The notes under the pieces were generated by a model. That model was not told the origin of the DNA. It saw only the letters and a list, made by a program, of their open reading frames with translations, and searched no databases. Source: a virus. From it: DNA of 64,000 bases. This document shows, one piece after another, positions 12,369 to 63,406 of the stretch; the first letter of the stretch is position 1, and every line of letters begins with the position of its first letter. Location: IMG/VR virus record IMGVR_UViG_3300025121_000023, positions 1-64,000 of that record. The stretch is one strand, 5' to 3'. The position numbers were made by a program, and so were the translations under genes.

Positions 12369-12381
12369 CAGCCGTTAGCAA

Positions 12382-13277: not shown

Positions 13278-13279
13278 TT

Positions 13280-13969
13280 TTATTTAAAACCAAAATAGAA
13301 TTTAGGAATAACTTCTATTTTTAATCCTTTAAAATAGTCATTTCTAAATTCTTCAATTATTTTTTCATCTTGTGTTGCAAATACATAAAAACCATTTAGA
13401 AATATTTGAATTTTATCCTGATATTTATTCTTTAACGTTTCAATTAATTTATTAAATACGTATGTTGTATCATCTAATATTTCAGTAGTTTCTTTATCAA
13501 ATTTAACTTCTGGATATATTTTTATTACATCACCTATAAAAGTAGGATTAATAATAACGCCTTTAATTGTTTCAAAATAATCGTGGAATAAAGTTAGAAA
13601 TAATATTGTATTATCATTATAAGCTCTTATATTATGTATCACAAATCCTGGTTTATATCTAGTAATTATTTGATTTCTAACATAATTTATAATTTCATCT
13701 TTATTATAAATATGTTTAACAAAAACAGATATATTTAATAATTCTTTATAATTATGTTTATTAGGAATGATATCATTTAATAATAATGATAATTTTGTTT
13801 TTTCATTATCTGTAAATTTTTTTTCTTTATCAAATTCACCTTTTTTAATAATTTTATTCATAAGAACTTCGGCATCAATATTTGTAAGTTCGGGTTTAAT
13901 TCCTAACTTAGTCTCCATCATTTTTCTTATATTTTGATTTATTTGATATTTTTTTGTTGATTCATACAT
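13280..13969 (-). CDS. Hypothetical protein, 229 aa
   Basis: Not recognised. Alpha-rich N-terminal half, beta-looking C-terminal half ending in FYFGFK. No cysteine cluster, signal peptide or membrane segment. Confidence 0.65.
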   Translation of the reverse strand: MYESTKKYQINQNIRKMMETKLGIKPELTNIDAEVLMNKIIKKGEFDKEKKFTDNEKTKLSLLLNDIIPNKHNYKELLNISVFVKHIYNKDEIINYVRNQIITRYKPGFVIHNIRAYNDNTILFLTLFHDYFETIKGVIINPTFIGDVIKIYPEVKFDKETTEILDDTTYVFNKLIETLKNKYQDKIQIFLNGFYVFATQDEKIIEEFRNDYFKGLKIEVIPKFYFGFK

Positions 13970-13981
13970 ATTATTAAAATA

Positions 13982-14347
13982 TTACTCATTATTTGAATTT
14001 TTATAATTTTTTAAAAAATCCTTTTTATCTTTTGATAATTTTTCTAAACCGACTTTATTTATTTCATTTAATATATCATCTATATTATATTTAGGTGATT
14101 TATCAATTGTAATAGGATTTCGAATTAGTCTATGTTTTTTTGTAGTACTTTTAATTGTATTATCTGAAACTTTTCTATATATCTGTCTAAGTTGATCTTC
14201 ATTTAAATGTTTACTCATTTTAGATATTATAGATGTTCTTGATTTTACAGAAATCTTTAATTTTTTAATTTCATCTCTATTTTTTAATATAAAATAGCCC
14301 ATAACAAATATTACAATTATTATTAATGTTAATAACAAATTTTCCAT
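13982..14347 (-). CDS. Membrane-anchored protein with DUF6576-like tail, 121 aa
   Basis: One N-terminal membrane anchor (about residues 4-21) followed by a basic stretch. The C-terminal segment DDILNEINKVGLEKLSKDKK resembles the short helical tail (DEILDKIxKxGxxSLSxEEK) found on Bacteroidota rhomboid proteins (DUF6576). Here it is on its own, suggesting a host-derived interaction module. 7 nt after the HD gene. Confidence 0.55.
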   Translation of the reverse strand: MENLLLTLIIIVIFVMGYFILKNRDEIKKLKISVKSRTSIISKMSKHLNEDQLRQIYRKVSDNTIKSTTKKHRLIRNPITIDKSPKYNIDDILNEINKVGLEKLSKDKKDFLKNYKNSNNE

Positions 14348-14354
14348 TTTTAAA

Positions 14355-15203
14355 TTATTTATAAATTACTATTTGTTTTTCAGTTGGTTTAACCATTTCA
14401 ACAGGAATGAATACATCAAACCCATTATCATCTTCAAGATGATTAATATTTTCGGGGAATGTATATCTAAATTTATCTATCATATATACAAAGTTATTTC
14501 CATTCCATACTGCTACTTGTGCATTTCTACATTTACCATAATAATATTGTCCAGTTATTAAATCATTTTTCCTAATTATTCCTTTATTAAATAATTCTTT
14601 ATATAATTCACCAGGTATTGGTCTAGGTAATTTAATATTATGAACAGTTTCTTTATCAAATTTTTCTATATTATTATATGTAATTTCAAAATATTTTTCA
14701 TTTGTATTTGTGATATTTTCTAACTCTTCCCACATTTCACCATATTTTCCATTATAAAGTTTTTCTTTAAATAAAGGAAATTCTTTTTTATACATTTTAA
14801 ACATATTATAATTCCCATATGTTTTACTATATATCATATTAGATATTCTATCACATATTTTAACAAAGATAGCATAATCACATTCTTTTATTCCTTCGTA
14901 ATATTTATTATTGGATCTTTCTGATCTGTTTTTTCCTTTTTCATTGCTAACTCTATAAATTATATCAGCAATTTTTACTCCTAGTACCTGTTTTACACCA
15001 TTATAATTAACAGTTGGATCTTCAATTAAATCATGTCCCCAACATGCTTTAATAATAATATCGTGATATTCTTTTGGAATTAAATATAAATATTTTTTAG
15101 CAATTTTAACAACACCTTGTAAATGAACAATATAAGGCAATTCATCATATTTTTGATTAATATCAATATGCTTTTGTATAATCCATTTAATTTTATCATC
15201 CAT
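14355..15203 (-). CDS. HD-domain protein resembling (p)ppGpp hydrolases
   Basis: 282 aa. Residues 20-150 show the SpoT/MESH1 HD arrangement: YIVHLQGV (His27), WGHDLIED (His57, Asp58, Glu61, Asp62), NEKGKNR, and KICDRISNM (Asp118, Asn122). Such enzymes cleave (p)ppGpp-type alarmones. The C-terminal 100 residues (LPRPIPGELYKELF...) are an unrecognised extra domain. It could remove starvation alarmones or pyrophosphorylated toxic nucleotides during infection; other HD phosphohydrolase substrates are possible. Confidence 0.7.
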   Translation of the reverse strand: MDDKIKWIIQKHIDINQKYDELPYIVHLQGVVKIAKKYLYLIPKEYHDIIIKACWGHDLIEDPTVNYNGVKQVLGVKIADIIYRVSNEKGKNRSERSNNKYYEGIKECDYAIFVKICDRISNMIYSKTYGNYNMFKMYKKEFPLFKEKLYNGKYGEMWEELENITNTNEKYFEITYNNIEKFDKETVHNIKLPRPIPGELYKELFNKGIIRKNDLITGQYYYGKCRNAQVAVWNGNNFVYMIDKFRYTFPENINHLEDDNGFDVFIPVEMVKPTEKQIVIYK

Positions 15204-15237
15204 AATTTATCACTTTAATTATTGTTCATGTGATATT

Positions 15238-21214: not shown

Positions 21215-21640
21215 TCAATAAATCAGATCAGCTAACTTTTTATCGACTATTATTCGTTCTAAAACATTATATTCTTTACCATAAAGAATTTTATTTATTT
21301 TTAATCTTCTTAAAAATAATGTATTATATTTTATATCTATTGTAGTATCCATCCAAGTTTTATTCGGATCAATATAAATTTCCATATTACTTATTCGACC
21401 TATTGAATATATCCCGCCATTAGTATTTAAAAGTGGAACTAGAAAACTTACAGAAAATTCACCGAAATCTTGGAATACTATACCTAAATGGGTATTTGTT
21501 ATTAAATCAACATTTACACAATTATACTTATTTAAATAATAAATAATTTTAGAATATATTTTTCTATTTAATGTATGTGTGCTATCAGCTATTGAATTTT
21601 TTGTTTCTAATATTTCATCATATGTAATTGTTTCAATCAT
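21215..21640 (-). CDS. Hypothetical protein, 141 aa
   Basis: Not recognised. Alternating beta-like segments, no cysteines of note. Ends TGA. 7 nt separate it from the HNH gene upstream, so both are probably on one mRNA. Confidence 0.6.
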   Translation of the reverse strand: MIETITYDEILETKNSIADSTHTLNRKIYSKIIYYLNKYNCVNVDLITNTHLGIVFQDFGEFSVSFLVPLLNTNGGIYSIGRISNMEIYIDPNKTWMDTTIDIKYNTLFLRRLKINKILYGKEYNVLERIIVDKKLADLIY

Positions 21641-24812: not shown

Positions 24813-27089
24813 TTATGTTCTTCTTCTTCTTCTACTATAATACCTTCTATTTACATGATGTGTTAAATCATATACATTTACTGGTCTAACTACTGGTCTA
24901 TCTTCTAGTCTATCTTCTGGTCTAACTTCTGGTCTAACTTCTGGTCTAACTTCTAGTCTAACTATATGTGTTAAATCATATGGATTAATATTTACTGGTC
25001 TATCTTCTGGTCTATTTTCTATTTCCATTATATCATCTTCTATTCTATCTACTGGTCTAACTTCTGGTCTAGCATCTGGACTAACTACTTCTGGACTAGC
25101 TTCTGAAAGATAAGGACTATAATTTGTCGTAGTATCTCTAAATATCGTTATGTATCCTGTTGATGAAATTTGATATATAGTACCATTATCGAAATAAACG
25201 ACAGTATCACCATTATGCATTGGACTTCTTTGTATAATATTAGCATTAATTGGTCTATTTAATACTATTATATTTCCAGTTTGTGCAATTTCATATATAG
25301 CTCCATTATCATAATATTCAATAACATCACCATTACTATTTCTATTTCTTCGTATAATATTAGCAATAATTGGTCTACTATCTTGACTTTGATTATTACT
25401 ATTTGAAGTTGTTCCTGTTAAAACTTGATTATCTACTCCTTGTGTTATATCATCACCACTTATATCAACACCACTTATATCAATTTCTGAATTTATAGAT
25501 CTTGATGATGCAGATTGAATTGTAAAATTAAAATCATTAAAATCTTGTAATTGTACACCAAGCCTATCAAGAGTATTTCTAACAACTACTGATCTATCAG
25601 AAGTAGGTACAGTACGTGATAATCCAATTACATTAAATGGATTACTTCCCATACTTGATATATTTCTTCTTCTTTGTGGTTGTTGGTCTAAAACAGGATT
25701 TAAATGTTTTGAAATTTGTTCCCTATAATCATAATATTTAGGTGTTTCACCTTTTCCATCCCATACTATTTTAAATAAATTCCCATTTTTTTCTTCAAAA
25801 AATTTACCAATTAATCTTCTATGAATTAATACTTTTTCTTTTTTATTTTTATCAAGATAAGCAATTTTAGAACTTTCTTTAAAAATCCAACTATTCATAT
25901 ATTCAGAAAAAATACAATAATCTCTTAAGAAATATATTTTCTTATTAATGACTTGTGTTTCTACAATTCTATTACTACCACGAGTAGCAAATTCTCCACC
26001 TGTATTATGAACATATATTTGATCACCATCACGAACATAATCATTATCAATCGAACAATAAATAGCTTCTGATCTTAAAATTTCACGATTATATAACTGA
26101 CTAAAAATCATATCACGATCTTCATATTCGACTAAATAATTACCTTGGTAATCCATTAAATGTAAATATGGTTTTTTTCTTAACAAATCACCATTATTAC
26201 ATAGTACTCCAGTAGTTGGATTAAATACAGATAATGTATCCAAATATGGATATTTTTTAAAATTATAATTTTTTAATCTAACTTCCATATATATCTTTTC
26301 CCAAGAAAGTACGTTATTATTTCTAGTATCAACAATTGGTTGTGACCAACCATATGTTTGACGATATTTATGTAACCATCCACGTTCTTTTGCATAATCT
26401 TTAAATAATTCAATATCAAAATCATTAACAGAATATATTCTATCCATTAATATTCTATCCATATTGTCTAGATACCAAATTAAAGCTCTTGCTTTAATTT
26501 TTCCTTCATCATCTTTTAAAATAAGCATATTAACTTTATCTTCATTTAATGCATACATTTTAAGAAAATTACTTGCCTTATCGTGTCGCATACAAGATTT
26601 ACCTAATGATGTTTCTTCATTAGCAAATCTAGTGTGTTGTTTATAGTTATACCATTTTACAAGAGTAGATCCTTTTACTTCCGAAAAATTTTTATAATTA
26701 ACTTTTTTATTTCTTTCTTTTTTAAAAATATTAACAAATGTTTCTATATCATATGGTGTTCCTGTATAGTTATCACCTTTTGGCATATTAATAGGATATC
26801 TATCTTTGAAAATTAATTTAATAATTTTTCCAATTCTCATTTCTGATCTTTTTTCAACCCAAGCACGTGAATTACATGTATCAAGATTTTCATCCATTAA
26901 TTCAATTAATTTATTTGAATAAATAAATGTAACACTATCTTCTTCATCACCAAAATCAAGATAAGATATGACAGTATTAGTTTTCCATCTTATCATTTCT
27001 GATAACTCATATGATATTTGATGATTCATTCTACTCAACAACTCTATTAATCTTTGGGATGCGATCATAGATATTTTTTCTCTTCGCAT
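24813..27089 (-). CDS. Large protein of a three-member phage family, with repeat tail, 758 aa
   Basis: Residues 1-300 align by eye with the proteins at 46610 and 47853: MRIGKIIKLIF, a KGSTLVKWYN segment, LGKSCM (Cys), FLKMYALNEDKVNMLILKD-type strands, KARALIWYL and DRIYSVND, then PYLDTL. No catalytic family was recognised. The C-terminal 200 residues are low-complexity with short repeats (RPEVRPEV, EDRPVVRP) and end in RRRRRT, a basic tail unique to this member. It has its own host-type promoter and a strong terminator, so it is a stand-alone early-type gene. Confidence 0.75.
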   Translation of the reverse strand: MRREKISMIASQRLIELLSRMNHQISYELSEMIRWKTNTVISYLDFGDEEDSVTFIYSNKLIELMDENLDTCNSRAWVEKRSEMRIGKIIKLIFKDRYPINMPKGDNYTGTPYDIETFVNIFKKERNKKVNYKNFSEVKGSTLVKWYNYKQHTRFANEETSLGKSCMRHDKASNFLKMYALNEDKVNMLILKDDEGKIKARALIWYLDNMDRILMDRIYSVNDFDIELFKDYAKERGWLHKYRQTYGWSQPIVDTRNNNVLSWEKIYMEVRLKNYNFKKYPYLDTLSVFNPTTGVLCNNGDLLRKKPYLHLMDYQGNYLVEYEDRDMIFSQLYNREILRSEAIYCSIDNDYVRDGDQIYVHNTGGEFATRGSNRIVETQVINKKIYFLRDYCIFSEYMNSWIFKESSKIAYLDKNKKEKVLIHRRLIGKFFEEKNGNLFKIVWDGKGETPKYYDYREQISKHLNPVLDQQPQRRRNISSMGSNPFNVIGLSRTVPTSDRSVVVRNTLDRLGVQLQDFNDFNFTIQSASSRSINSEIDISGVDISGDDITQGVDNQVLTGTTSNSNNQSQDSRPIIANIIRRNRNSNGDVIEYYDNGAIYEIAQTGNIIVLNRPINANIIQRSPMHNGDTVVYFDNGTIYQISSTGYITIFRDTTTNYSPYLSEASPEVVSPDARPEVRPVDRIEDDIMEIENRPEDRPVNINPYDLTHIVRLEVRPEVRPEVRPEDRLEDRPVVRPVNVYDLTHHVNRRYYSRRRRRT
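24880..25090 (-). repeat. Short tandem repeats encoding the PEVRP/EDRP tail
   Basis: Plus-strand units of the form CTTCTGGTCTAA / CTTCTAGTCTAA recur many times with small variations, at 12-15 nt spacing, inside the 3' part of the 758-aa gene. They keep the reading frame and encode Arg-Pro-Glu/Asp-Val/Asp repeats. Confidence 0.7.
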
Positions 27090-27794: not shown

Positions 27795-28451
27795 ATGAAA
27801 TATATTCAAAAGTTTGAAAAATTTAATATAAATAGTGATTATTTTTTATTAAGAAAAATAATTAAAGATGTTAAATTAGATTTTTATAGTATATTAAAAT
27901 ATCAATTAGCTATAATAAATATCAATTTAATTATATCAAAATTAATAAATAATGAATCAAATTATAATACACTTTTATTAACTATCTGTGCAATATCTAT
28001 ACTCACTAGGGAAAATAAAGATAAAATTAAAACGTTATTTAATTTTGCATTAGAAAAAGGAATTACAGAAGAAGAAATAAATGATGTTATTAATAAAATA
28101 AATCTGTTATTGGAATTATTTACTTCAGTTGCTAAACAATTTGATAAAAATATTTCAACAGTAAATAAAATGATACGTAATATATCCATTCTAATACCTT
28201 TTTTAAGCGTTTTAAAGGACTTAATTAATAATGAACTAGTAGATGTTCAATGGTTTAATAATGGTTCAGATAATCTTAAAAAAAGTATAGGGCTAGATAA
28301 ATATAAAAGAATCATTGAACGATTAATGCATAAAATAATAATAATAATAAGTTCAACTGATAAATTTCAGAATGTAGAAAATGTTAAACCTTTATTAGCA
28401 CAGGATGAATTAAAATCTCCTATGTACAAAAAAATTAAACCATATATTTAA
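27795..28451 (+). CDS. Hypothetical plus-strand protein, 218 aa
   Basis: Starts MKYIQKFEKFN, a basic-aromatic N-terminal peptide resembling those of other plus-strand genes in the window, but without the following N-E pair. The rest is helical (KLINNESNYNTLLLTICAISILT...), with possible weak membrane association. It starts the only plus-strand run in the middle of the window, divergent from the phosphoesterase gene. Confidence 0.65.
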   Translation: MKYIQKFEKFNINSDYFLLRKIIKDVKLDFYSILKYQLAIININLIISKLINNESNYNTLLLTICAISILTRENKDKIKTLFNFALEKGITEEEINDVINKINLLLELFTSVAKQFDKNISTVNKMIRNISILIPFLSVLKDLINNELVDVQWFNNGSDNLKKSIGLDKYKRIIERLMHKIIIIISSTDKFQNVENVKPLLAQDELKSPMYKKIKPYI

Positions 28452-28453: not shown

Positions 28454-28720
28454 ATGAAACATCTTAAAAAATTTGAAAATTATATTCAAAAGTCAGAAAA
28501 TTATAAAAGTTTAGTTAATGAATTTTATGATGAAACAGAACTAATATATAAAACTACAGAACAGATAATAAGGGAAGATATTAAAAAATATTTAAAATAT
28601 AATTATTCAGATACATATATTGAAGCAGCATTATACGGAAAATATAAATATGCTTATTCAATGGAAGATATTAATTCATTAATAGAAGAAGAAAGAAGAA
28701 ATATGGATTTGGTGGATTAA
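28454..28720 (+). CDS. Hypothetical plus-strand protein, 88 aa
   Basis: Starts MKHLKKFENYIQKSE, again the Lys/Phe-rich N-terminal peptide, then an acidic helical protein. 2 nt after the previous stop, so co-translated. The host-type promoter of the next genes overlaps its 3' end. Confidence 0.65.
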   Translation: MKHLKKFENYIQKSENYKSLVNEFYDETELIYKTTEQIIREDIKKYLKYNYSDTYIEAALYGKYKYAYSMEDINSLIEEERRNMDLVD

Positions 28721-37210: not shown

Positions 37211-38155
37211 TTACATTGCACCAAAAATATCTCTACTAATAGATTGCCCACTTGCAATTCTTTTAATTGCTTGTGCAAGTAATTCATCAGTAGATAATAC
37301 TATTATTTTTTTACTTAGTTCTGATTGAATAGGAATAGTATCAGTAACTATCAATTCATCTAATTTAGAATTATTAATATTATCATAAGCATTTCCTGAT
37401 AATATAGGATGTGTTATAAGAGCCCTAACTGATTTAGCACCACTATTCATAACTAAATCAGCAGCTTTACAAATTGTTCCAGCAGAATCAATGATATCAT
37501 CAATAAAGAAAACATCTTTGCCTTTTACATCACCGATAAGTTTCATTTTAGATACATCTCCATTAGTACCTCTTTCTTTATGAACAAGTACTAAATCAGT
37601 ATCAAATGCATTTGAATAACGACTTGCTCTTTTTGAACCTCCTACATCTGGTGATGCAAAAACCATATTATCAATAGAAAAATTTTCTCTAAGATAAGGA
37701 ATAAATATAAAACTTGAACTTAAATGATCTACTGGAATATCAAAAAATCCTTGAATTTGATCAACATGTAAATCAATTGTTATAACTCTATCAGCACCAG
37801 AAGCAGTTATTAAATTGGTCATTAATTTAGCTGATACCGGAACACGTGGTTCGTCTTTTCTATCTTGTCTAGCGTATCCAAAATAAGGAATAACGGCACA
37901 AATTTTTCTTGCAGATGCTCTTTTAGCAGCATCTAACATTAAAAATAATTCAATCAGATTATCACTACTTGGATTAGTAGATTGAATTATAAATATTTTT
38001 TTCTCTCTTACTGTTTCACCAAAACGAACTTTAATTTCACCATCACTAAATTTTTTAATACTGATATTATTTAATGTTTTTTTATCAGAATATTTTTCTA
38101 CTACTTTTTTAGCTAGTTTTTTAGATGCTGTTCCAGAAAAAATTTTTATACTCAT
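37211..38155 (-). CDS. prs: Ribose-phosphate pyrophosphokinase (PRPP synthase)
   Basis: 314 aa, the usual class I length. Motifs: FSDGEIKV, YFGYARQDRKDEPRVPVSAK (ATP site), TIDLHVDQIQGFF, SPDVGGSKRA, VHKERG, and the PRPP loop FIDDIIDSAGTI. It makes PRPP from ribose 5-phosphate and ATP. PRPP is the co-substrate of PncB, so it should support the phage NAD+ salvage route as well as nucleotide synthesis. It is a standard Prs by eye; whether it could act like the ADP-ribose pyrophosphorylating enzyme of NARP1 cannot be excluded. Confidence 0.93.
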   Translation of the reverse strand: MSIKIFSGTASKKLAKKVVEKYSDKKTLNNISIKKFSDGEIKVRFGETVREKKIFIIQSTNPSSDNLIELFLMLDAAKRASARKICAVIPYFGYARQDRKDEPRVPVSAKLMTNLITASGADRVITIDLHVDQIQGFFDIPVDHLSSSFIFIPYLRENFSIDNMVFASPDVGGSKRASRYSNAFDTDLVLVHKERGTNGDVSKMKLIGDVKGKDVFFIDDIIDSAGTICKAADLVMNSGAKSVRALITHPILSGNAYDNINNSKLDELIVTDTIPIQSELSKKIIVLSTDELLAQAIKRIASGQSISRDIFGAM

Positions 38156-46609: not shown

Positions 46610-47875
46610 TCATCTATATTTTTCTTTTAATATTATTTTACCGTTTATTTTTTCGGTTTTTTCTTCTAACTCTGAATTAGGAATCCAACCATGAAAATCA
46701 TCATTCTTATTAATATATGTGCAGTCATCTTTAAGTCTATATTTATCACCATTTCTCCAATCACGTGTTCCAACACTACAATATATAAAATTAGTATCGA
46801 TATCTGATATCCATCTTTTATAAAAATCTGACCATTTAGCATTTGATGTACCACCACCAGCATCATTTAATAATATATCTTCACCATTTTCACCATTTTT
46901 ATAATTAGACAATTTATTTAATGTGTAATTATAATATTTTAATGTATCTAAATACGGGAAATATGTATGTGGTTTTATTCCTATAACTTCTAAACGCGGA
47001 TATTTATCTTTTAAACCTTTTCCACTAATTTCATTTTCTCCTGTACTTTGATGTTTTTTCCAAAACCAATCATTTTGTTTAGCATATTCAATAAATAAAT
47101 CGATTATGTGTGGTTTTTGATAATAAATTCTATCTAAAAAAAATCTTCCATTAAATTGACCACTAAGTTCCCAAACTAATGCCCTAGCTACTATTCTTTC
47201 TCTATTTTCATTTTCAAATAAAATTAATAATCGAACTTTAGGTGAATTTATAGCATAAAATTCTAAGTAATCATTGCAACCATAAGACATACATGACTGA
47301 TTTAATACTGTTTTATTACCGTTAAGTGCATAATGTTTTTGATCATACCACTTTATTATATCTTTACCTGATACTATTTCAAATAAATTATCTGTATTAT
47401 TTAACATTAAAGTATAATTAGATTTATAAAGATTAACAAAAGTTTCAATAGAGTCATATGATCCATTATCTGGGAATCTATCTTTATATAATTTTTTAAC
47501 TAATTTTCCAATTTTCATTTTTGATCTATATTTATCCCATAATTTATTTTTATCATCACGAATAATTTCATAAAAATCTTCGTCATATATTGTTTTAGTT
47601 TTATCTTCATTTTCATAATAATTATTAATATAATCAATTAATTTTGGCGAACTAGTAAAACTAATCATATCATTTTCATCGGTTATATCAATTAAAGTAA
47701 ATGGTTGATTAGAATATGTAGAAATTATCATTCTACTAGCAATTGGATGATCAATACTTTCAATTAAATATCTAAATTTAGCACTAAAAACAAGTTGTAA
47801 ATTTCCTGTATTATTAACCAATAATTCAAATAATTTATCTATGATAAATTCGTTATGTGTTTTTATTAATTTCAT
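46610..47875 (-). CDS. Protein of the three-member SCM family, 421 aa
   Basis: Paralog of the 758-aa and 525-aa proteins: MKIGKLVKKLY, KDIIKWYDQKHYAL, LNQSCMSYG, FYAINSPKVRLLILFEN, IVARALVWEL, FLDRIYYQKPH, then PYLDTLKYYN. No catalytic family recognised. The ATG at 47875 is chosen over a TTG at 47887; it overlaps the next gene by 23 nt. Confidence 0.68.
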   Translation of the reverse strand: MKLIKTHNEFIIDKLFELLVNNTGNLQLVFSAKFRYLIESIDHPIASRMIISTYSNQPFTLIDITDENDMISFTSSPKLIDYINNYYENEDKTKTIYDEDFYEIIRDDKNKLWDKYRSKMKIGKLVKKLYKDRFPDNGSYDSIETFVNLYKSNYTLMLNNTDNLFEIVSGKDIIKWYDQKHYALNGNKTVLNQSCMSYGCNDYLEFYAINSPKVRLLILFENENRERIVARALVWELSGQFNGRFFLDRIYYQKPHIIDLFIEYAKQNDWFWKKHQSTGENEISGKGLKDKYPRLEVIGIKPHTYFPYLDTLKYYNYTLNKLSNYKNGENGEDILLNDAGGGTSNAKWSDFYKRWISDIDTNFIYCSVGTRDWRNGDKYRLKDDCTYINKNDDFHGWIPNSELEEKTEKINGKIILKEKYR

Positions 47876-49430
47876 TATATTTGTCAATATCTTCTTTTTT
47901 TACATCATTAAAGTAATAATCACCTTTATATTTATAATAATCATCAGTTGGATCATCCTCATAACTAACTATAAATTTTTGTTTACTATAATCTTTATAG
48001 ATTTTAATATGATTTTTTATATCTACATAAGTAAACAATCTATCTGAATATATACTATCTTCTATTTTAAGCCATTCGTCTGAGAAATTATTATAAACCC
48101 AACCATGATATGGATGTAATCTAACTTTTAATACCCAATCTTTATATTTTTCTATATATTCTGATTCGTTTTTTTGTATCCAAGAATCATGATATTTTGA
48201 TTTAACAAAATATTTATCTATATTATCTTTATGTGTATATCTATGATTAATACTAATATGAACTGCATCTATTTTTTTAATCCATTCATTATTTATAAAA
48301 TCTATAATCCATTCTTTATCAGTCGTTACAAAAACTTGGTTATATCTCTTAGAATATCTTATATTACTTTGACCATATGTATCCCATAATGGTGTATATT
48401 TATTAGATTGTATATGGTTATTATTGTTTGTTAATATCCCGTCATATGGATTATAATTATATAATGTATCTAGAAATGGAAATTGTAATTCATCTGGTTT
48501 AGGGCATTTAATACCTTTAACGACCATTTTAATTTCTACTGATTTATCTTTTTCATAACCATATATAGGACAATCTTCATCACTATTTTGTCTACTTTTA
48601 TGTAAATATCCATTTGATTTAATATATGATAAAAATTTAATTAAATGATTATTTGAATTATAATATATTCTATCTACAAAATATTTATTTTTAACTTGTT
48701 TATCATTTATTTCAGAAAGTTTCCATATTAAAGCTCTACCATCTATTTTACTTTTATCTTTTTCATTATGTAAAATTATCAGTCGTACTGTAGGTGAATT
48801 TATAGCATAAAATTTTAAAAATCCACTACACATAGCTTTATTCATACAAGAATTTGTTAATGGTGTATTTATATCAAAATATGCAATTTGATTTTTATTA
48901 TAATAATGCACAATATCATCACCTTGTACTATTTCGAATAAATCATAATCTTTTGTTAATACAGTGGCATACATGTCCATAAATGATTGTATATCATTAT
49001 CTGGATATCCGTTTGGTTTAAATTCATTAGGAAATAATTTATTTATTAATTTACCTATTTTTATTTTTATTTTATATTTTTTTAATTCATTTTCATAGAA
49101 ATTGATATAGCTTTTAATAGTATAATTATTATAATTATTAATTTTATTAATATCATTGTGTATAATATCTATAATTTTATTAGATGTAATAAAAGATAAT
49201 TTATCTTTTTCGTCATAAATAACATCTAACATCGTTTCTTTTTTATATTCTTCTTCTTTTGATGTTTTTAATAATTTATATGCAATTGGATGTATTATTT
49301 CTTTTAAAATTGCTTTTAAATTATCTGATAAATAAAAAGGTAAAGCACCATCTTTTATTGATAAATCATCAGAATAATATTCTAATATTTTATCTATTCT
49401 ATAATCATCAAAATATTTTATTATTTTCAT
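47853..49430 (-). CDS. Protein of the three-member SCM family, 525 aa
   Basis: Same conserved blocks as its neighbour: IKIGKLINKLF, GDDIVHYYNKNQIAY, LTNSCMNKA, FYAINSPTVRLIILHN, IDGRALIWKL, FVDRIYYNSN, PFLDTLYNYNP, with a longer C-terminus rich in Tyr/Trp/Asp. A tandem duplicate of the 421-aa gene. Confidence 0.68.
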   Translation of the reverse strand: MKIIKYFDDYRIDKILEYYSDDLSIKDGALPFYLSDNLKAILKEIIHPIAYKLLKTSKEEEYKKETMLDVIYDEKDKLSFITSNKIIDIIHNDINKINNYNNYTIKSYINFYENELKKYKIKIKIGKLINKLFPNEFKPNGYPDNDIQSFMDMYATVLTKDYDLFEIVQGDDIVHYYNKNQIAYFDINTPLTNSCMNKAMCSGFLKFYAINSPTVRLIILHNEKDKSKIDGRALIWKLSEINDKQVKNKYFVDRIYYNSNNHLIKFLSYIKSNGYLHKSRQNSDEDCPIYGYEKDKSVEIKMVVKGIKCPKPDELQFPFLDTLYNYNPYDGILTNNNNHIQSNKYTPLWDTYGQSNIRYSKRYNQVFVTTDKEWIIDFINNEWIKKIDAVHISINHRYTHKDNIDKYFVKSKYHDSWIQKNESEYIEKYKDWVLKVRLHPYHGWVYNNFSDEWLKIEDSIYSDRLFTYVDIKNHIKIYKDYSKQKFIVSYEDDPTDDYYKYKGDYYFNDVKKEDIDKYNEINKNT

Positions 49431-56513: not shown

Positions 56514-57853
56514 GACAAATAATGACATCTGATACATTTTTTTCCTAATTCAACGACAAAACTATTGTTTCATCTCCAAAGGCGTTAATTTGGGTGAACT
56601 CGACCCTATTTATTTTATCATCTTTAATTGATTTCAATCTTATACCTTCATTTTTAATGTTTATTGCTGCGTTTAAATCCCTGTTTAGTACAGAATTGCA
56701 TTTTGAACAAGTCCATTCTCTATCTTTCATAGTTAATTTATCATTTTTAACTCCACAACAACTACATTTTTTTGATGATGGAAAAAATCTATCAATTTGT
56801 ATTACTTCTCTATCATACCATATAGCTTTGTATTCTAAAATTGTTTTAAATTTATTTAATGATAATTCTTGAATTGATTTAGCTAAATGATGATTTTTTA
56901 ACATTCCACTTACATTTAAGTCTTCAATAACTATAGTTTGGTTTTCTCTAAGTAATTGATTAACTACACTATGTAAATAGTTTTCTTTTATATTTGTTAT
57001 TTTTTCATGATATTTTGATAATTTTATCCTTATTTTTTGTTTATTTTTTGAACCTTTTTGTTTTCGTGAAAGCAACTGATTTAACCTTTTAAGTTTTTTT
57101 TCATTATTTCTAGTTGATTTTATATTTTTAAATACTTGGTTATCAGATGATACGATAAAATCTTTTATACCTAAATCAATACCTATAATATTATTTTTAG
57201 GTTTTTGTAATATTTTATTTGGCTTATCAATTAAAATGCTAAAATAATATTTATTTGATTTAGTTTTAGTTAATGTACCAGATTTAATTAAATATTTATT
57301 TTTATTTAAATAAATTTCATCTTGTCTTGAACATTTAAAATGAATATCTTTTAATGGTCTAATTATATTTATTCGATTTCCATTGATTTTACCGATGGCA
57401 TCAACAGGAAATCTACAAGATTGTTTGTTGTGTTTTGATTTAAATTTTGGAAATCCATTACCATTACTAAAAAATGATTTATAAGCAATATCTAAATTAA
57501 CTAAACTCTGTTGTAAAACCTTTGAATGGCTATCTTTTAACCAATTAAATTCTTCGATTGCTTTTAAATTAGTTAAATATTTTCCTGTTTCTACAAAAGA
57601 AACTGATTTTTTATGATTATTATATTGATCAATTTTATGAGCTAAACAATTGTTATAAACAAATCTGGATGATCCAATTAATTTATTCACATAAATTGTT
57701 TGTTCATTATTTAAATATAATCTTGTTTTTATTGCTTTTAACATTTTTAAATTATTGTTAGTTTTTTACTTACATTATATATTAAATAAAAAATATGATA
57801 TTTTTCCATTTTAAAAAAGTGATTATAATTGACAATATTTTACATTATTTGTC
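56514..57853 (-). mobile_element. Solitary TnpB element (IS200/IS605 type, IS1341-like)
   Basis: A tnpB gene with no tnpA nearby. An 11-bp inverted pair GACAAATAATG (56514-56524) and CATTATTTGTC (57843-57853) flanks it on both sides, about 30 nt beyond the 3' end and 100 nt beyond the 5' end. These may mark the element ends or be chance in AT-rich DNA. The guide (omega) RNA would be expected at the 3' end of tnpB, that is near 56514-56650. Confidence 0.5.
56545..57744 (-). CDS. tnpB: TnpB RNA-guided nuclease (IS605 OrfB)
   Basis: 399 aa, full length. RuvC-type catalytic residues: Asp in GIDLGIKD (about 188), Glu in VIEDLNVSG (about 271), Asp in NRDLNAAINI (about 355), plus the CSCCG...CSKC zinc ribbon. 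The N-terminal helix-turn region LKAIKTRLYLNNEQ is also typical. An active nuclease is therefore likely. In phages such genes act as selfish elements or in inter-phage competition. Confidence 0.92.
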   Translation of the reverse strand: MLKAIKTRLYLNNEQTIYVNKLIGSSRFVYNNCLAHKIDQYNNHKKSVSFVETGKYLTNLKAIEEFNWLKDSHSKVLQQSLVNLDIAYKSFFSNGNGFPKFKSKHNKQSCRFPVDAIGKINGNRINIIRPLKDIHFKCSRQDEIYLNKNKYLIKSGTLTKTKSNKYYFSILIDKPNKILQKPKNNIIGIDLGIKDFIVSSDNQVFKNIKSTRNNEKKLKRLNQLLSRKQKGSKNKQKIRIKLSKYHEKITNIKENYLHSVVNQLLRENQTIVIEDLNVSGMLKNHHLAKSIQELSLNKFKTILEYKAIWYDREVIQIDRFFPSSKKCSCCGVKNDKLTMKDREWTCSKCNSVLNRDLNAAINIKNEGIRLKSIKDDKINRVEFTQINAFGDETIVLSLN

Positions 57854-57964: not shown

Positions 57965-58483
57965 ATGAAAAAATTTAAGGAATTTATTAACGAAAATATA
58001 AAAAGTATACTAAAAGGTAAATCTGATGAAGATGTTATTGAACAATTAAAAAAATTAGATAATAATGAAAGAATTCAAAAAATAATTGAATTACAGTCAT
58101 ATTGGGAATTATTACCAAGAGATTTAAAAGGAGTTTGTATTTTTTTTGGAGATTTAATATTAAATGGTGATGAAGGTCATAATAAATTAGAATTTTTACC
58201 ACCCGATTTTATTGTTACTGGTGATTTAGATGTTAGTTATAATGAAATTAGATATTTACCAAAAAACTTGATAGTTAAGGGTGATTTGGATTGTACAGAT
58301 AATCAATTAACTGAAATACCAAAAGATTTAATTGTTGGTGGTATTTTATATATAGAATATAATTATATAAAGGAAATACCAGAAACTATAAATGCTAGTG
58401 CAATTATATGTAGTAGACAAGACTTAGTACCTAAAAAAAAGGTAAAAAAACCAAAAAATTTTACAGGAAAATTTATTAATTAA
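57965..58483 (+). CDS. LRR-like protein with capsid-targeting-like N-terminus, 172 aa
   Basis: N-terminus MKKFKEFINENIKSILKGKSDEDVIEQLKKL: the first dozen residues resemble the T4 capsid-targeting peptide MKTYQEFIAE, followed by a K-[SG]-x-E-D-[VI] segment shared with two other genes. After about residue 70 there are leucine-rich-like strands (DLDVSYNEIRYLPKNLIVKG, DLDCTDNQLTEIPKDLIVGG). Possibly an internal head protein ejected into the host. The link to T4 is by eye. Confidence 0.72.
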   Translation: MKKFKEFINENIKSILKGKSDEDVIEQLKKLDNNERIQKIIELQSYWELLPRDLKGVCIFFGDLILNGDEGHNKLEFLPPDFIVTGDLDVSYNEIRYLPKNLIVKGDLDCTDNQLTEIPKDLIVGGILYIEYNYIKEIPETINASAIICSRQDLVPKKKVKKPKNFTGKFIN

Positions 58484-58485
58484 TT

Positions 58486-59082
58486 ATGAAAAATTACAAA
58501 CAATTCAACGAAAACAAATTGCCTAAAATAAAAAAAGGTATTAAAGAAATATTAAAACCATTTAAAGAAAATGAAATTGATATATTTGATACATTTAATT
58601 TAGATAAACAAAATTTTAATATAAAAGATTATATAGAAAATCTGTATAATAATGCCGATTTTAATCATAAAATAGAAAAAAAAGGTTTAAAAAAAGGAAA
58701 ACTTCAAGATACTAAATATAATGAAGTATTACTATATGATAGATATGTTCTTAGATTTTTCTTTATTTATAAAAAAGATGCAATCGAAATTGAAGAACCT
58801 AAATTTATTTTAGTTCAATATTATGATAAGAAAAAAAATATATTAAGTTCAATTAAATTATATAAAAATAAAAACAATACCCAAGATTTCTATGAAGATT
58901 TAACTGATGCTACTATCGAAATTGAAAAAGGTGATGATAATTTTATTTATAAAACATCTAATTCTGGAAATAATTGGGAATTAAAAAATCCAAAAGATGT
59001 CCAAGGTGATTTTAAAGACTCATTAGATAAAACAGAAATTAAAAAAATATTAAAAGACAAAAATACAAAAGTGAGTAAATGA
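58486..59082 (+). CDS. Plus-strand protein with MKNYKQFNE N-terminus, 198 aa
   Basis: Begins MKNYKQFNENKLPKIKK, a related but shorter N-terminal peptide. The remainder is Lys-rich with no recognised domain. It starts 2 nt after the LRR gene stop, so it is in the same transcript. Confidence 0.65.
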   Translation: MKNYKQFNENKLPKIKKGIKEILKPFKENEIDIFDTFNLDKQNFNIKDYIENLYNNADFNHKIEKKGLKKGKLQDTKYNEVLLYDRYVLRFFFIYKKDAIEIEEPKFILVQYYDKKKNILSSIKLYKNKNNTQDFYEDLTDATIEIEKGDDNFIYKTSNSGNNWELKNPKDVQGDFKDSLDKTEIKKILKDKNTKVSK

Positions 59083-59137
59083 AAAAAAAATTTAAATTCA
59101 TTTTAATATAAATTAAAAAACAAAAAAAGATAAATAG

Positions 59138-59581
59138 ATGGAATCCAAAAATAATTATAAATATATTGTTATAAATATACCTACAGTAAATTTTGAAAAT
59201 CGTTTATATACAACAAATAAATTAGTTAAAATAATTCGAATGTTATATAAAAACAATATTCTAATATGGAATTTTAATGAAAATACTAATGTTGATAATT
59301 GGGTAAGACTTTCTTTAATTGATTTGGATGAAGATAGATATATTATAGATGAAATGAATATAAAAAATACAGATGATATAGCATTTTTTGAAAAATATCC
59401 CGTTTATATATATATTAACTTATATATAAATGATTTGTGGTATGATTATGATTATGACTATCAAAGGGAGGATGATCCACACGTTTATTCAAATGTAGAT
59501 ATAAGAGATTTTAAAAGTATAATAGAAACTGGTAAAATACCAATTAAACCCGATTATTCACCAAGGAAATATAGGGTTTAA
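59138..59581 (+). CDS. Plus-strand protein with PDYSPRK tail, 147 aa
   Basis: Not recognised by function. The end FKSIIETGKIPIKPDYSPRKYRV matches the tail motif PDY-[TR]-PRR of the tandem array and of the 371-aa gene. Tyr/Asp-rich middle. No capsid-like N-terminus. Confidence 0.62.
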   Translation: MESKNNYKYIVINIPTVNFENRLYTTNKLVKIIRMLYKNNILIWNFNENTNVDNWVRLSLIDLDEDRYIIDEMNIKNTDDIAFFEKYPVYIYINLYINDLWYDYDYDYQREDDPHVYSNVDIRDFKSIIETGKIPIKPDYSPRKYRV

Positions 59582-59589
59582 TTGTTAGT

Positions 59590-60045
59590 TCATCCAGTAA
59601 TATCTTTAATTTCTTTTTTAGAATCTCTATCTTTGATATAATTTCTTTTATCTGCAACCTTTCTACCTTTTGCTAATGCTATTTCCATTTTAAAAAACCC
59701 TTTATCGTTAGTATAAAGTTTCAATGGAACAATAGATAAACCTTTTTCTTCAATTTCAATTTTTAGTTTAAGCAATTGCTTTTTATGTAATAATAATTTT
59801 CTATCCCTTATAGGATCAACATTATTATAAGAACCTTCTTCTAATATAGATATATTCATACCTTTAATAAATAATTCATTATCGATAAAAATACAATATG
59901 TACCGTTTATGTTAACTTTATTATCTCTTACTGATTTAACTTCTGTGCCTGTTAAAACAATACCAGCTTCGATTTTATTTATAATTTCAAAATCAAAATA
60001 TGCTCGTTTATTTTTAAATGTACTTGTTAATTTTTTCTTTTTCAT
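59590..60045 (-). CDS. smpB: SmpB, tmRNA-binding protein
   Basis: 151 aa. Clear SmpB: NKRAYFDFEIINKIEAGIVLTGTEVKSVR, NGTYCIF, RDRKLLLHKKQLLKL, KGLSIVPLKLYTNDKGFFKMEIALAKGRK and DKRNYIKDRD. It would bind tmRNA and start rescue of stalled ribosomes. The C-terminal tail after KREI is short (DITG), so its A-site-entering helix may be altered. No tmRNA gene was recognised in the window, so it presumably uses host tmRNA. It is a minus-strand gene inside a plus-strand block. Confidence 0.93.
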   Translation of the reverse strand: MKKKKLTSTFKNKRAYFDFEIINKIEAGIVLTGTEVKSVRDNKVNINGTYCIFIDNELFIKGMNISILEEGSYNNVDPIRDRKLLLHKKQLLKLKIEIEEKGLSIVPLKLYTNDKGFFKMEIALAKGRKVADKRNYIKDRDSKKEIKDITG

Positions 60046-60380
60046 TATTTTCCTGGGATTACATAAAGTTCAATAGTGGATACTTGTTTTAATAAATTGA
60101 AAAATTCTTCTCTATATTCATAACTAATACTTTCTAAAGTAGAAGGTAATTCATTACCATTAAGAGGAATATATACATATCCTTTTGTAAATGGTTTATC
60201 TTTAATATTTACAGAATATACTATGACACCTATCGCATCTGTATTATATTTAGCACTTACACCATTAACAGTAAAGGTTAGTGATTTTTCAGTCTTTACT
60301 ACTATTATAGTATCTAATATATTTACTTCATTATGATCAATTACGTGTTCATGTGGTTTATTAAAAATTATCTTTTTCAT
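60045..60380 (-). CDS. Hypothetical protein, 111 aa
   Basis: Not recognised. Beta-rich (KSLTFTVNGVSAKYNTDAIGVIVYS...). The stop overlaps the smpB start by one base, so the two are co-translated. A TATATTTG lies upstream at 60404-60411 without a clear -33 element. Confidence 0.6.
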   Translation of the reverse strand: MKKIIFNKPHEHVIDHNEVNILDTIIVVKTEKSLTFTVNGVSAKYNTDAIGVIVYSVNIKDKPFTKGYVYIPLNGNELPSTLESISYEYREEFFNLLKQVSTIELYVIPGK

Positions 60381-60466
60381 TCTTGTTTATTATTTTTTAA
60401 TTACAAATATAATAAATATATTGTAATTTACTATATTTGTTTATATAATTTTATATATATTATATT

Positions 60467-61303
60467 ATGAGTGTAAAAAGTTTTAAAAATTTTGTAAATG
60501 AAAATATTAAAGATCTACTAGTTGGTAAATCATCAGAAGATATTAAAAATCAACTTAAAGGTAAATCTTTTTCAGAAATATTGAATTTAACAAAGAAGTA
60601 TAATATTTATTTTATGGATTTTTTTACAAAAAAAGAACTTAAAGATATTTTTAAAGATTGTTCATTTAAAGAAATTTATGATCAAATAAGATTTAATGGT
60701 GATATAGAAAATATATTTACAAGAGATGAAATAAAAGAATTATTAAAAAAAGATGTACTTAGTAGCACTACTACATATCTTCATAATTACGATTTAAAAT
60801 TAAATAATTTATTTACAAAAGAAGAAGTAAGAGAATTATTAAAAAAAAATAAATGGTATGATGTATTTAAATTTTTAAAAGATAATGATAAATCGTACAA
60901 AGAATATTTATCAAAAAATGATATAATTGAATTAGCTGAAAACCGTTTTGGCAAAAAAATACATAATATATTTGATTTAATCAATATTATGTTTTATAAC
61001 GGAAATATAAATATATTTGACATATTCACAAAAGAAGAAATAAAAAAAGAGTTAGATAAAATATATTTTTATTATCATAATGATATTATAAAAATGTATA
61101 AATTGCCGTTTGATTTAGTATATCCTACAAAAGAACAATTAATTGATTTAATACAAAGATTTTATTATGAAGAAAAAAATATAAGTCGTAATCAAATTAA
61201 CAATTATTTAAATCAATTTAATATTGATTTAGATAATCCAAAGTATTTAAATATATCTAAATTAGAAAAAGATGTACAAAAAAATCGTAATGAAGTTAAA
61301 TAA
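60467..61303 (+). CDS. Plus-strand repeat protein with capsid-targeting-like N-terminus, 278 aa
   Basis: N-terminus SVKSFKNFVNENIKDLLVGKSSEDIKNQL, matching the LRR gene peptide (NENIK-[SD]-[IL]-L-x-GKS-x-ED). It then has about five helical repeats of the form FTKEE-[IV]-[KR]-ELLKK. Candidate internal head or ejected protein; repeats suggest protein-protein contacts. Confidence 0.7.
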   Translation: MSVKSFKNFVNENIKDLLVGKSSEDIKNQLKGKSFSEILNLTKKYNIYFMDFFTKKELKDIFKDCSFKEIYDQIRFNGDIENIFTRDEIKELLKKDVLSSTTTYLHNYDLKLNNLFTKEEVRELLKKNKWYDVFKFLKDNDKSYKEYLSKNDIIELAENRFGKKIHNIFDLINIMFYNGNINIFDIFTKEEIKKELDKIYFYYHNDIIKMYKLPFDLVYPTKEQLIDLIQRFYYEEKNISRNQINNYLNQFNIDLDNPKYLNISKLEKDVQKNRNEVK

Positions 61304-61388
61304 GAATTAGTATAAGGTGCTGTTATGAAAGGAAATTTTGTAAATTAAGAAAATTTATATATAGTTATAGAAATAAATAAAATTAGAT

Positions 61389-62249
61389 ATGAAAAGATTA
61401 AAAAAATTCAAACAATTTATAACAGAAGATGTAGATATTACAGCACAAGATTTAAAACATCCAGTTGATGAACCTATACAACAAGGTATTCCAACATCTC
61501 AAATGCAAGTACAAGGTCAACCAATACAAAATCAACCACAAGTACAACCACAAATGCCTATACAACCTAAAAAATTAACATTGGATAAATATCGTAATAT
61601 GATAGATTATACATTGTTAAAGGATAATGTAAGTAAAGAATTATTACAAAATTTTATAGAAGAAGCAATTCGACAAAAATTTTATGCTATTTGTATATTA
61701 CCTAAGTATGTGGCTGATGCTGAATTTATTATTGATGATAGAAATTTAAAAATAGTCACTGTTATAGATTATCCAAATGGAACAGCAACAGCAAACGAAA
61801 AATTAGTAGAAACTACTGAAGCATTAGCAGATGGTGCAACCGAAATTGATATGGTTATGGATTTTAAAGCATTGAAAGATGCTTATTTAGATGAAAATGA
61901 AGAATCACAAGAATCTACATATCAAATATTACAAAAAGAAATAAAAACTGTCGGTGATGAATGTCATAGAAACGGTGCCATATTAAAAGTTATTGTAGAA
62001 GCAGAATTATTAACATTAGAAGAATTAGCAAAAGCTTGTGAATTAGTTACCAATGGTGGTGCTGATTTTATAAAAACATCAACAGGAACTAATAATAAAC
62101 CAGTAGAATTAGTTAAAGTAAAAGAAATGAGAAGATTATTACCTGATTATGTTAAAATTAAAATATCGGGTGGTGTAAGGACATTACAACAATGTGAAGA
62201 TTTTTATCAATATATTGATAGAATAGGTACATCTATTATTTTAAAGTAG
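61389..62249 (+). CDS. deoC: Deoxyribose-phosphate aldolase with capsid-targeting-like N-terminus
   Basis: 286 aa; DeoC is usually about 220-260. Residues 1-12 (MKRLKKFKQFITE) look like the targeting peptide; 38-60 is a Gln/Pro-rich linker (QVQGQPIQNQPQVQPQ); 64-286 is a complete DeoC: LDKYRNMIDYTLLK, EIDMVMDF (Asp154), GGADFIKTSTG (Schiff-base Lys229), KIKISGGVRT (Lys258). It splits 2-deoxyribose 5-phosphate to glyceraldehyde 3-phosphate and acetaldehyde. Stop is TAG, with TAA a few codons later. An enzyme carried in the virion would be unusual; that part is inference. Confidence 0.88.
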   Translation: MKRLKKFKQFITEDVDITAQDLKHPVDEPIQQGIPTSQMQVQGQPIQNQPQVQPQMPIQPKKLTLDKYRNMIDYTLLKDNVSKELLQNFIEEAIRQKFYAICILPKYVADAEFIIDDRNLKIVTVIDYPNGTATANEKLVETTEALADGATEIDMVMDFKALKDAYLDENEESQESTYQILQKEIKTVGDECHRNGAILKVIVEAELLTLEELAKACELVTNGGADFIKTSTGTNNKPVELVKVKEMRRLLPDYVKIKISGGVRTLQQCEDFYQYIDRIGTSIILK

Positions 62250-62290: not shown

Positions 62291-63406
62291 ATGAGTAGAG
62301 TATTAGTAATTGTTGATGTTCAAAAAGAATTTGATGATTTTATCCAACGTGATTTAGTAGATGAATTATATGATTATGCAGAAAAATTTGAAAAAGTATA
62401 TCAGATATGGGATTCTAATAAAAATCAAATAAAACCAACTTATGAATTTCCTAACCAGGTTAAATCAGTTAAAAAGAAATTCGGTAGAAACCATTTTAAT
62501 AATAAAGTCCAAAAATTTACACAAGATATTGAAGATGTATCTAAAGAAGGTACTACTTTTAAATTAACAAAAGGAAATGGATATATTATTAGAGTAGATA
62601 ACAATCATCAATGGTTTTATGTTAATCCAGAAATTACCGATTTAATTGAAGAATTAAAAGATGATGAAGTTGTTTTAGTTGGTGGTGCTGATGGTGAATG
62701 TCTTGAAGATGTTAAAGTAGCATTTGAAGCTTTTGGATTAAATTATAGAATTAATAAAAAATATGTTTATAGTGCCAAAACAGATAAAAATGATACGATT
62801 AAAGATAATATTAGTGAAGCTAAAAAACAAAAATTTGAATATGATGAAATTTGTTATAAAGTTCAAGATCAAGAAGATGAAGATTTTATTAAATCATATT
62901 TAACAACACAAGGGTATGATTATACAGGACTTAATTCAATACATACAAAACCATATTATTTATTTGTTGATATTAAAAAAGGTAATTTAACACATGATAC
63001 TATACATAGTCTTGATAGGCTTGGTGGTTTAATTAATTATACAAAAGAATATGAATATAGTATATATCCAGTAGTTTTTGATAGATCTAGTTTTAGTACT
63101 TTTAGAGGTATTATAGAATATGGAGAAATAATACCAGATTATAGACCAAGAAGAAAACTTAATGAATCTATAAAAGATATTTTAAAAGGAAAATCAAAAG
63201 AAGATATTGAAAATGCTATGGAAGATTTATTAACTAAAATAACTGATGAAGCAATAGAATTATTTCCGAAAAAATTTACTGAATGGACAGATACATATAA
63301 ATATTTTGAAAAATATAGAGATATAATAAAAAAATACATATTACAAAGTTATACTATTAGTAATGTTATTTATTATATTGTTAATGGATACGCAGAAAAA
63401 AAATAA
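62291..63406 (+). CDS. Composite protein: isochorismatase-like domain plus PDYRPRR and NESIK modules, 371 aa
   Basis: Residues 1-170 resemble a degenerate cysteine hydrolase of the isochorismatase/nicotinamidase fold: VLVIVDVQKEFDD (Asp8) and VVLVGGADGECLEDVKVAFEAFG (Cys in the nucleophile position). No clear catalytic Lys or metal His is seen, so activity is doubtful. Residues about 195-290 end FRGIIEYGEIIPDYRPRRK, the shared tail motif. Then LNESIKDILKGKSKEDIENAMEDL repeats the segment found at the N-terminus of the LRR and repeat genes, here in the interior. The whole looks assembled from modules used elsewhere in this genome. Confidence 0.65.
   Translation: MSRVLVIVDVQKEFDDFIQRDLVDELYDYAEKFEKVYQIWDSNKNQIKPTYEFPNQVKSVKKKFGRNHFNNKVQKFTQDIEDVSKEGTTFKLTKGNGYIIRVDNNHQWFYVNPEITDLIEELKDDEVVLVGGADGECLEDVKVAFEAFGLNYRINKKYVYSAKTDKNDTIKDNISEAKKQKFEYDEICYKVQDQEDEDFIKSYLTTQGYDYTGLNSIHTKPYYLFVDIKKGNLTHDTIHSLDRLGGLINYTKEYEYSIYPVVFDRSSFSTFRGIIEYGEIIPDYRPRRKLNESIKDILKGKSKEDIENAMEDLLTKITDEAIELFPKKFTEWTDTYKYFEKYRDIIKKYILQSYTISNVIYYIVNGYAEKK

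Follow-up and report, generated by a model that had tools for sequence, protein, structure and literature searches.

Why should neighbouring genes of a virus, encoding proteins of separate families, begin with nearly the same short peptide? The question is raised by positions 57,965 to 62,249 of a 64,000-base window, the first 64,000 bases of the 112,560-base virus record IMGVR_UViG_3300025121_000023, in which three plus-strand open reading frames (ORFs) start with MKKFKEFINENIK (57965), MSVKSFKNFVNENIK (60467), and MKRLKKFKQFITED (61389). A sequence-only reading of this window had pointed to the three N-termini, and translation finds each of them where it had placed them and on the same strand. 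It is our view, with a probability of roughly three in four, that the shared N-terminus is a propeptide of the kind that bacteriophage T4 uses as a capsid-targeting sequence (CTS). The features that carry this N-terminus, hereafter the tag, are as follows.

57965..57994, plus strand: tag MKKFKEFINE, with a predicted cut after E10; its length and register are those of T4 MKTYQEFIAE (translation, pattern test, IPII and IPIII as translated from NC_000866)
57965..58483, plus strand: 172-residue protein, leucine-rich-repeat-like behind the tag by eye, with no Pfam match
60467..60502, plus strand: tag MSVKSFKNFVNE, with a predicted cut after E12 (translation, pattern test)
60467..61303, plus strand: 278-residue protein with no recognised family behind the tag, its only Pfam match lying below the cut-off
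61389..61427, plus strand: tag MKRLKKFKQFITE, with a predicted cut after E13 (translation, pattern test, homologue in the huge phage LR756501)
61428..61589, plus strand: 54-residue Gln/Pro-rich linker from tag to enzyme, not conserved in LR756501 (alignment A3)
61590..62234, plus strand: deoxyribose-phosphate aldolase (DeoC) domain, residues 68-282 (TIGR00126, PF01791, PDB sequences)

A strict pattern, [FYW]xx[FYW][ILVM]xE, was derived from T4 MKTYQEFIAE and the three strong window cases and was counted in the first 25 residues of ORFs of at least 60 residues (a non-overlapping set with mechanical starts). The comparators were internal 25-residue windows of the same proteins and shuffled N-termini, and the pattern controls had D or K in place of E, a spacing one residue shorter or longer, or E one residue later. 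In the record, 8 of 145 ORFs are tagged compared with 4 of 1,074 internal windows (p 1e-5), or with 8 of 960 when the windows are tiled from residue 50 (p 4e-4), and the control patterns show no excess, occurring in 0-2 of the 145. The genome-wide search that had been proposed along with the three N-termini therefore returns eight strict tags, at 57965, 60467, 61389, 77654, 86478, 90678, 97160, and 102393 in record coordinates, roughly one of which may be a chance match. Three of the eight defined the pattern; the counts in other genomes are independent of those three.

Searches of viral contigs yielded the relatives G001, G002, G004, G005, and G006. With two G006 queries, the portal and the homologue of the ORF at 89291, tblastn reached uncultured huge phages with genomes of 462-735 kb. 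In LR756501, 60 of 980 ORFs are tagged compared with 42 of 7,183 internal windows (p 6e-30). This excess is gone when the Glu is replaced (D 3/980, K 6/980), and most of it is lost with a shorter (12/980, p 0.007) or longer (5/980) spacing; with E one residue later the count is 13/980 (p 0.001). The first 400 kb were counted in LR745206 (21/545 versus 18/3,912 internal windows), LR756500 (20/511 versus 23/3,893), and G010 (21/459 versus 27/4,090), while G011 gave 11/332 versus 16/2,672 and G005 3/83 (p 0.006). These counts lose ORFs cut by the borders of 20-kb stretches, including the protease ORF of LR745206, which was read from locus L064 instead, and some internal counts, from the analysis of LR745206 and LR756500 onward, omit protease-like ORFs. 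Replacing E by D in the pattern gives no significant excess in the record, LR756501, LR745206, LR756500, G010, or G011. In the 60-109 kb stretch of T4, the two matches among 65 ORFs are ipII and ipIII, too few for significance (p 0.15), and the strict tag occurs in 0 of 100 ORFs in the first 100 kb of crAss001. The matches at N-termini also differ from internal ones in the columns that the pattern leaves free. Across seven genomes, column 3 holds E, D, Q, or N in 83 of 117 N-terminal matches versus 35 of 136 internal matches, and column 6 holds N, A, or K in 79 of 117 versus 41 of 136; the first aromatic falls at residues 4-8 in 102 of the 117. The pattern is a genuine, selective, and portable N-terminal signal.

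PMC9026906 reports that in the T4 internal protein IPIII residues 4 and 7 matter for targeting and residues 8 and 10 for processing. The conserved positions of the pattern are these functional residues, which supports the T4 CTS reading as far as sequence goes. All three strong window proteins have the aromatic-x-x-aromatic arrangement together with the aliphatic residue and Glu at the processing positions, and their tags end at residues 10, 12, and 13. This places them within the first 10-20 residues, as in the CTS of IPII and IPIII, which has aromatics, aliphatic, and Glu at the same positions and likewise sits on unrelated proteins. A T4-type protease, too, occurs in relatives. The first 10-13 residues would bind the scaffolding core during prohead formation, drawing the protein into the head, where the prohead protease would cut after the Glu and release a mature protein that would be ejected with the DNA at infection. 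The proposal that the pattern marks head cargo thus gains from the conserved IPIII positions, from T4-type head genes in relatives, and from the spread of tags over many unrelated proteins, on whose homologues they are often retained; the packaging and cleavage of tagged proteins are what we infer from these.

Gene order, tblastn, and PHROGs located the prohead protease in relatives. The order in LR756501 is portal, then a protein whose N-terminal part is a head maturation protease, then a major head protein. The head maturation protease (phrog_207) is recognised in LR756501 (E 5e-27) and LR745206 (E 4e-30), the major head protein (phrog_138) matches in relatives at E 1e-22 and 1e-30, and hhalign aligns the protease profile with T4 gp21 (probability 91, E 1e-6). 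The protease protein of four huge phages carries tandem 14-residue repeats (YSEYIAENLDKNIA) with the same pattern as the tag. There are 12 units in register in LR756501, where they lie mid-protein (for example YSEYIAENLDKSID), 11 in LR745206, 11 in LR756502, and 10 in LR756504, and LR756500 has a looser version. A query that included the repeats found 55 viral loci, of which 36 gave a protease ORF by pattern, all with 7-13 units; the other 19 gave none by pattern and were excluded. Among 133 distinct units, Tyr stands at position 1 (97%) and at position 4, Glu at 3 (80%), and Ala at 6 (95%), with position 8 most often Asn and position 9 Leu or Val, although the units were picked by pattern and columns 1, 4, 5, and 7 are therefore fixed by selection. 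With 14 pattern matches, the protease-repeat protein ranks first among 1,614 six-frame ORFs of LR756501, the next having 7 and the rest at most 2. Elsewhere in LR756501, a 1,691-residue protein (L072 1458-6533, minus strand) has seven FV[KN]Y[IL]xE units at a spacing of roughly 60 residues.

Because they are fused to the protease, the repeats are read as a putative scaffold. For the lineage of this phage, which is related to the uncultured phages of 634-735 kb, the scaffolding core probably takes in the protease-fused repeat region, and the tag would in effect be one detached repeat unit, docking among its like. From the relatives, we infer that the phage of the record has such a protease and scaffold too. 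Taken together, this gives a bolder proposal, which we advance tentatively and rate a little short of an even bet: that in the largest known phages the tag is a detached scaffold repeat, so that cargo poses as scaffold and one protease cuts both at the same site, and that tens of injected proteins, among them metabolic enzymes and a large family whose core may be acetyltransferase-like, can be read from sequence. The strict tag is present on 3-6% of ORFs, a share that rises to 7-15% with the looser forms described below (background for these about 3%). Alternatively, tag and repeats could have converged, shaped by a shared protease and a shared binding partner. At positions 4 and 6 the tags mostly carry Phe and Asn, against Tyr and Ala in the repeats. 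A repeat-only profile also recovers few tags, so the likeness is one of pattern and not of exact residues. As a tag finder, the repeat-only profile was rejected, being too strict and weak in signal.

Several observations weigh against the capsid-targeting reading or its extension to the repeats. At a score of at least 6, the repeat-only profile reaches 12 of 775 N-termini of LR756501 and 28 of 6,116 internal windows (repeats included), and 1 of 122 N-termini in the record. In the 55 viral loci, the ORFs adjoining the putative scaffold show no enrichment of tags (5/437 versus 32/3,777). Some controls are mildly raised, namely the shorter spacing and later E in LR756501 and K-for-E in LR745206 (9/545, p 0.005). 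The tag is found in 0 of 312 ORFs of the relative G006, in 1 of 91 in G001, and in 4 of 134 in G004 (p 0.06). It also occurs on enzymes that by eye look cytoplasmic, a DnaB-like helicase in LR756501 and a thymidylate synthase in G010, both of which are probably chance matches. T4 itself is not uniform, as IPI (MKTFKEFTSTTT) lies outside the strict pattern; the claim that MKTYQEFIAE begins the T4 internal proteins and Alt therefore stands for IPII and IPIII and fails for IPI, and Alt, which was not translated here, loses just a 7-residue propeptide according to PMC9026906.

Finally, neither protease nor portal was found in the 112,560-base record, which is probably a fragment. The gp21-like protease that the sequence-only reading had suggested looking for was thus not found there. 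Pfam gp21 (PF03420) matched neither the record nor any of 10 records, although no control matched either, so that absence is not concluded. Pfam gp23 (PF07068) gave no match in the record and matches below the cut-off in 4 of 10 records (G002, G004, G005, and G006). In the window, a 141-residue ORF (21215-21640, minus strand) has 92 residues that share about 30% identity with a C-terminal stretch of the major head protein of LR756501; this likeness is far too short for a major head protein. Two small stand-alone ORFs (L013 2264-2701 and L044 12735-13103) look like parts of the prohead protease, and a third (L063 4689-7214), by eye, like a part of the major head protein. In a metagenomic record, a protease-like stretch is split over two reading frames (L059 2440-3000; G006 about 186440-187000).

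Another account of the shared N-terminus, which we consider rather unlikely, is that it directs proteins elsewhere (phage nucleus, membrane, or replication site) or acts as a signal for degradation or for translation start. In its favour, tagged metabolic enzymes, DeoC among them, could be cytoplasmic. A second element, N-[IV]-K-[DS]-[IL]-L-x-[GP]-K-S, directly follows several tags (alignment A1). In the window, this GKS/PKS element is found at the following places.

57995..58036, plus strand: GKS/PKS module NIKSILKGKSDEDV (alignment A1), found elsewhere on many proteins and also internally
60503..60544, plus strand: GKS/PKS module NIKDLLVGKSSEDI (alignment A1)
63161..63196, plus strand: internal GKS/PKS copy NESIKDILKGKS, at residue 291 of the isochorismatase-like ORF 62291

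The element starts 27 of 312 ORFs in the 260-kb G006, around [IV]-L-K-P-K-[ST]-x-[ED] and on unrelated proteins (L027-L039), and it stands without a tag on the G006 helicase 194397 (MGMTDILKPKSKDEL; phrog_2488, E 5e-110), a further point against packaging and in favour of some other destination. However, at the gene starts of LR756501 the PKS element is found in 0 of 980 ORFs, though 60 tags are there. The relatives show that the element is separable, and it was therefore dropped as part of the tag and is not counted as packaging evidence. A destination other than the head is also hard to reconcile with the match to the mapped targeting and processing positions of T4, the need for Glu, the shared pattern of repeats fused to the prohead protease, and the T4 control, which picks internal proteins only.

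Less likely still is that the tags are remnants of gene duplication, in which one ancestral gene was copied and only its start kept alike with no targeting function. Some paralogy is present. Along most of its length, the protein at 57965 shares 40% and 37% identity with the ORFs at record positions 88216 and 87713, whose starts, MKTFKQYNES and MIKTYKQYNES, have a form one residue shorter than the strict tag, and a single family holds 20 of the 141 tagged proteins of six genomes. However, with their first 30 residues removed, those 141 proteins fall into 97 families with no blastp similarity between them (E 1e-3), and the eight of the record into eight. In addition, the LR756501 DeoC is also tagged (MVKNFDKFVREA), and its linker differs from that of the window. 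Chance, in an AT-rich genome (23% G+C) rich in K, F, N, I, and E, is hardly credible and is refuted for the set as a whole, as shuffled N-termini match at 0.55% against 5.5% observed (internal windows 0.4-0.8%) and relatives of 31-32% G+C give an equally strong signal.

The tag also tends to be kept between phages. Among cross-genome homologue pairs, which are not independent given the family of 20, the homologue is tagged in 197 of 464 for tagged proteins versus 268 of 3,609 for untagged ones; the strict tag is missing in over half of the homologues of tagged proteins. In the record, the ORF at 89291 (MKKLKRFNELFEA, not strict) adjoins the tagged 90678, and their LR745206 homologues start with MRFLKKFEKFNEEF, a variant, and MKNFKDFMNEE. 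Further homologues of 89291 start with MKSFDKFINEE in G010, MKIKDFEKFLLEE in G011, and MKRVKESLNLFEAE, again a variant, in G006. The untagged window ORF 62291 has a tagged homologue in LR756501 (MKVIKFSDYLKES; 46% identity over 170 residues), and its homologues in LR745206, G010, and G011 start with a K-x-[FY]-E form.

Tagged proteins reach 663 residues. A Pfam scan of 115 sequences, made up of 112 of 113 tagged ORFs (one G011 ORF, L225, being omitted, and LR756500 excluded) and the three window proteins, matched DeoC, PPK2, GH108, methyltransferases, GNAT, NUDIX, thymidylate synthase, and DnaB among the 25 of 42 families listed. The window's DeoC (61389-62249) scores 164.7 bits with TIGR00126 against a cut-off of 117.3, its LR756501 homologue scoring 240.9, and matches 27 distinct PDB sequences at E<=1e-10. 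Its DFIKTSTG aligns with DFVKTSTG of PDB 6d33, so that the active-site lysine of D-F-[VI]-K-T-S-T-G is present.

The largest tagged family is probably that of 47853, 46610, 24813, 75835, and 77654. This paralogous family is encoded in the window at 24813-27089, 46610-47887, and 47853-49430 (minus strand) and in L009 at 11835-13667 and 13654-15237 (plus strand). Its members have about 350-750 residues and belong to no Pfam family; C, R, W, and D-R-x-Y are unchanged throughout 19 of them that were aligned, and dozens of homologues, many of them tagged, occur in huge phages. Neither Pfam nor the PDB placed the family by sequence, as Pfam at E up to 1 yielded no acetyltransferase family and the PDB no plausible relative. 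A structure model for the family of 47853 (mean predicted local distance difference test score 50.7, predicted template modelling score 0.51) matched mostly acetyltransferases among the 50 PDB matches listed, none below E 6e-3, and its matches among viral predicted structures were uncharacterised phage proteins. This low-confidence model offers a weak hint that the family may have an acetyltransferase-like core.

The sequence-only reading had also listed three weaker N-termini. They exist on the plus strand, and none has the strict pattern, as they do not combine the aliphatic residue with Glu at the processing positions.

58486..58512, plus strand: form MKNYKQFNE, one residue shorter and without the aliphatic residue (start MKNYKQFNEN)
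28454..28720, plus strand: MKHLKKFENYIQ, an N-terminus of the K-x-F-E class (second-class pattern count)
27795..28451, plus strand: N-terminus MKYIQKFEKFN, which fits neither pattern class

The LR756501 homologue of 58486 (W01_476705) has the full pattern MRIKGYNKFVKED behind an internal Met at ORF residue 25, and this is a tag only if translation starts at that Met. Among the homologues of 27795 in relatives, some are tagged (W01_685640, G010_193921). The pattern of the second class is K-x-[FY]-E-[NSADE], and relatives show it in strong excess: G010 (39/459), G011 (31/332), LR745206 (32/545), LR756501 (39/980), LR756500 (16/511), and G006 (10/312). Its Asp version is not enriched, and its Lys version is somewhat so in LR745206, LR756500, G010, and G011. 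In the record itself the class, including 28454, is not significant (2/145, p 0.39), and it is less specific, as it matches 3 of 65 ORFs in the T4 stretch. Strict, short, and K-x-F-E forms together account for 12% of N-termini both in the record and in LR756501, and for 15% both in G010 and in G011, compared with about 3% of internal windows.

The tagged genes had been taken for a late set, lying on the strand opposite to the rest. Five of the eight in the record are on the plus strand and three on the minus strand, so the interval 57965-62249 is only part of the set. An excess on the minority strand is found in the record (5/8 tagged versus 23/137 others, p 0.007) and in LR756501 (35/60 versus 290/920, p 5e-5); LR745206, G010, and G011 lack it, and in LR756500 it falls short of significance (p 0.09). 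The expectation of a late set on the opposite strand thus holds in part. Upstream of tagged genes in six genomes, the T4 late promoter TATAAATA shows no clear excess (1/8 tagged versus 7/137 in the record; 2/20 versus 16/491 in LR756500). The motif AATAAATA lies upstream of 4 of 8 tagged genes versus 13 of 137, in the record only.

The kind of tag is known already from T4, whose internal set consists of three internal proteins and Alt (PMC9026906), whereas six enriched records here hold 8-60 strict tags each, including on enzymes. By eye, T4 gp22 has no 14-residue repeats, unlike the protease-fused region of the huge phages. Giant phages of the phiKZ/SPN3US kind also eject many head proteins and have a T4-related protease cutting after Glu, but their propeptides are mostly far longer than 10-20 residues, several exceeding 100, whereas the tags here are short; a counterpart of the T4 scaffold was unconfirmed in a 2017 study of SPN3US (PMC5694885), while here a repeat region is fused to the protease. 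The repeat region would thus offer a scaffold counterpart for giant phages. T4 injected proteins are first-response counter-defences, IPI acting against GmrSD and IPIII being needed on strain ECOR17 (PMC9391042). A readable tag would make each genome of these huge uncultured phages a list of candidate injected effectors. No statement of the scale of the tag in huge phages, its presence on enzymes such as DeoC, or its match to protease-fused repeats was found in the titles and abstract openings of the listed papers that deal with capsid targeting, the prohead protease, or phages of huge or mega size, and the available portions of PMC7162821, PMC12363816, and PMC9723777 make no mention of such tags.

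As for the affinities of the phage, the Mahaphage clade of a 2020 paper (PMC7162821) unites that paper's largest genomes (634, 636, 642, and 735 kb) and the Lak phages, with predicted Bacteroidetes hosts. The 735-kb LR756501 has homologues of DeoC (42% identity), 101603, and 62291 of the record, the 634-kb LR745206 has homologues of 89291 and 90678, and both carry the protease-repeat protein. As the 112-kb record is a piece that yielded no terminase, portal, or complete head gene, its membership of the clade is not proven. The G006 terminase and huge-phage head proteins as queries found neither gene in the 112,560 bases, a DeoC bait brought no confirmed relative out of viral contigs and matched none of 14 scaffold-bearing contigs, and DNA polymerase as bait found nothing.

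Downstream of DeoC lies one further ORF.

62291..63406, plus strand: isochorismatase-like ORF, named by eye with no Pfam, PHROGs, or NCBIfam match, and without an N-terminal tag

On the minus strand, the window encodes SmpB, the SsrA-binding protein (59590-60045; TIGR00086, 178 bits against a cut-off of 119), and, at 56545-57744, a transposase of the IS605 OrfB/TnpB kind, named by eye. The same strand holds a nicotinamide adenine dinucleotide salvage set at 3545-4723, 6987-7610, and 37211-38155, comprising a nicotinate phosphoribosyltransferase (TIGR01514, 407 bits), a phosphoribosyl pyrophosphate synthetase (402 bits), and a nicotinamidase-like protein whose 127 bits lie under its cut-off of 174.

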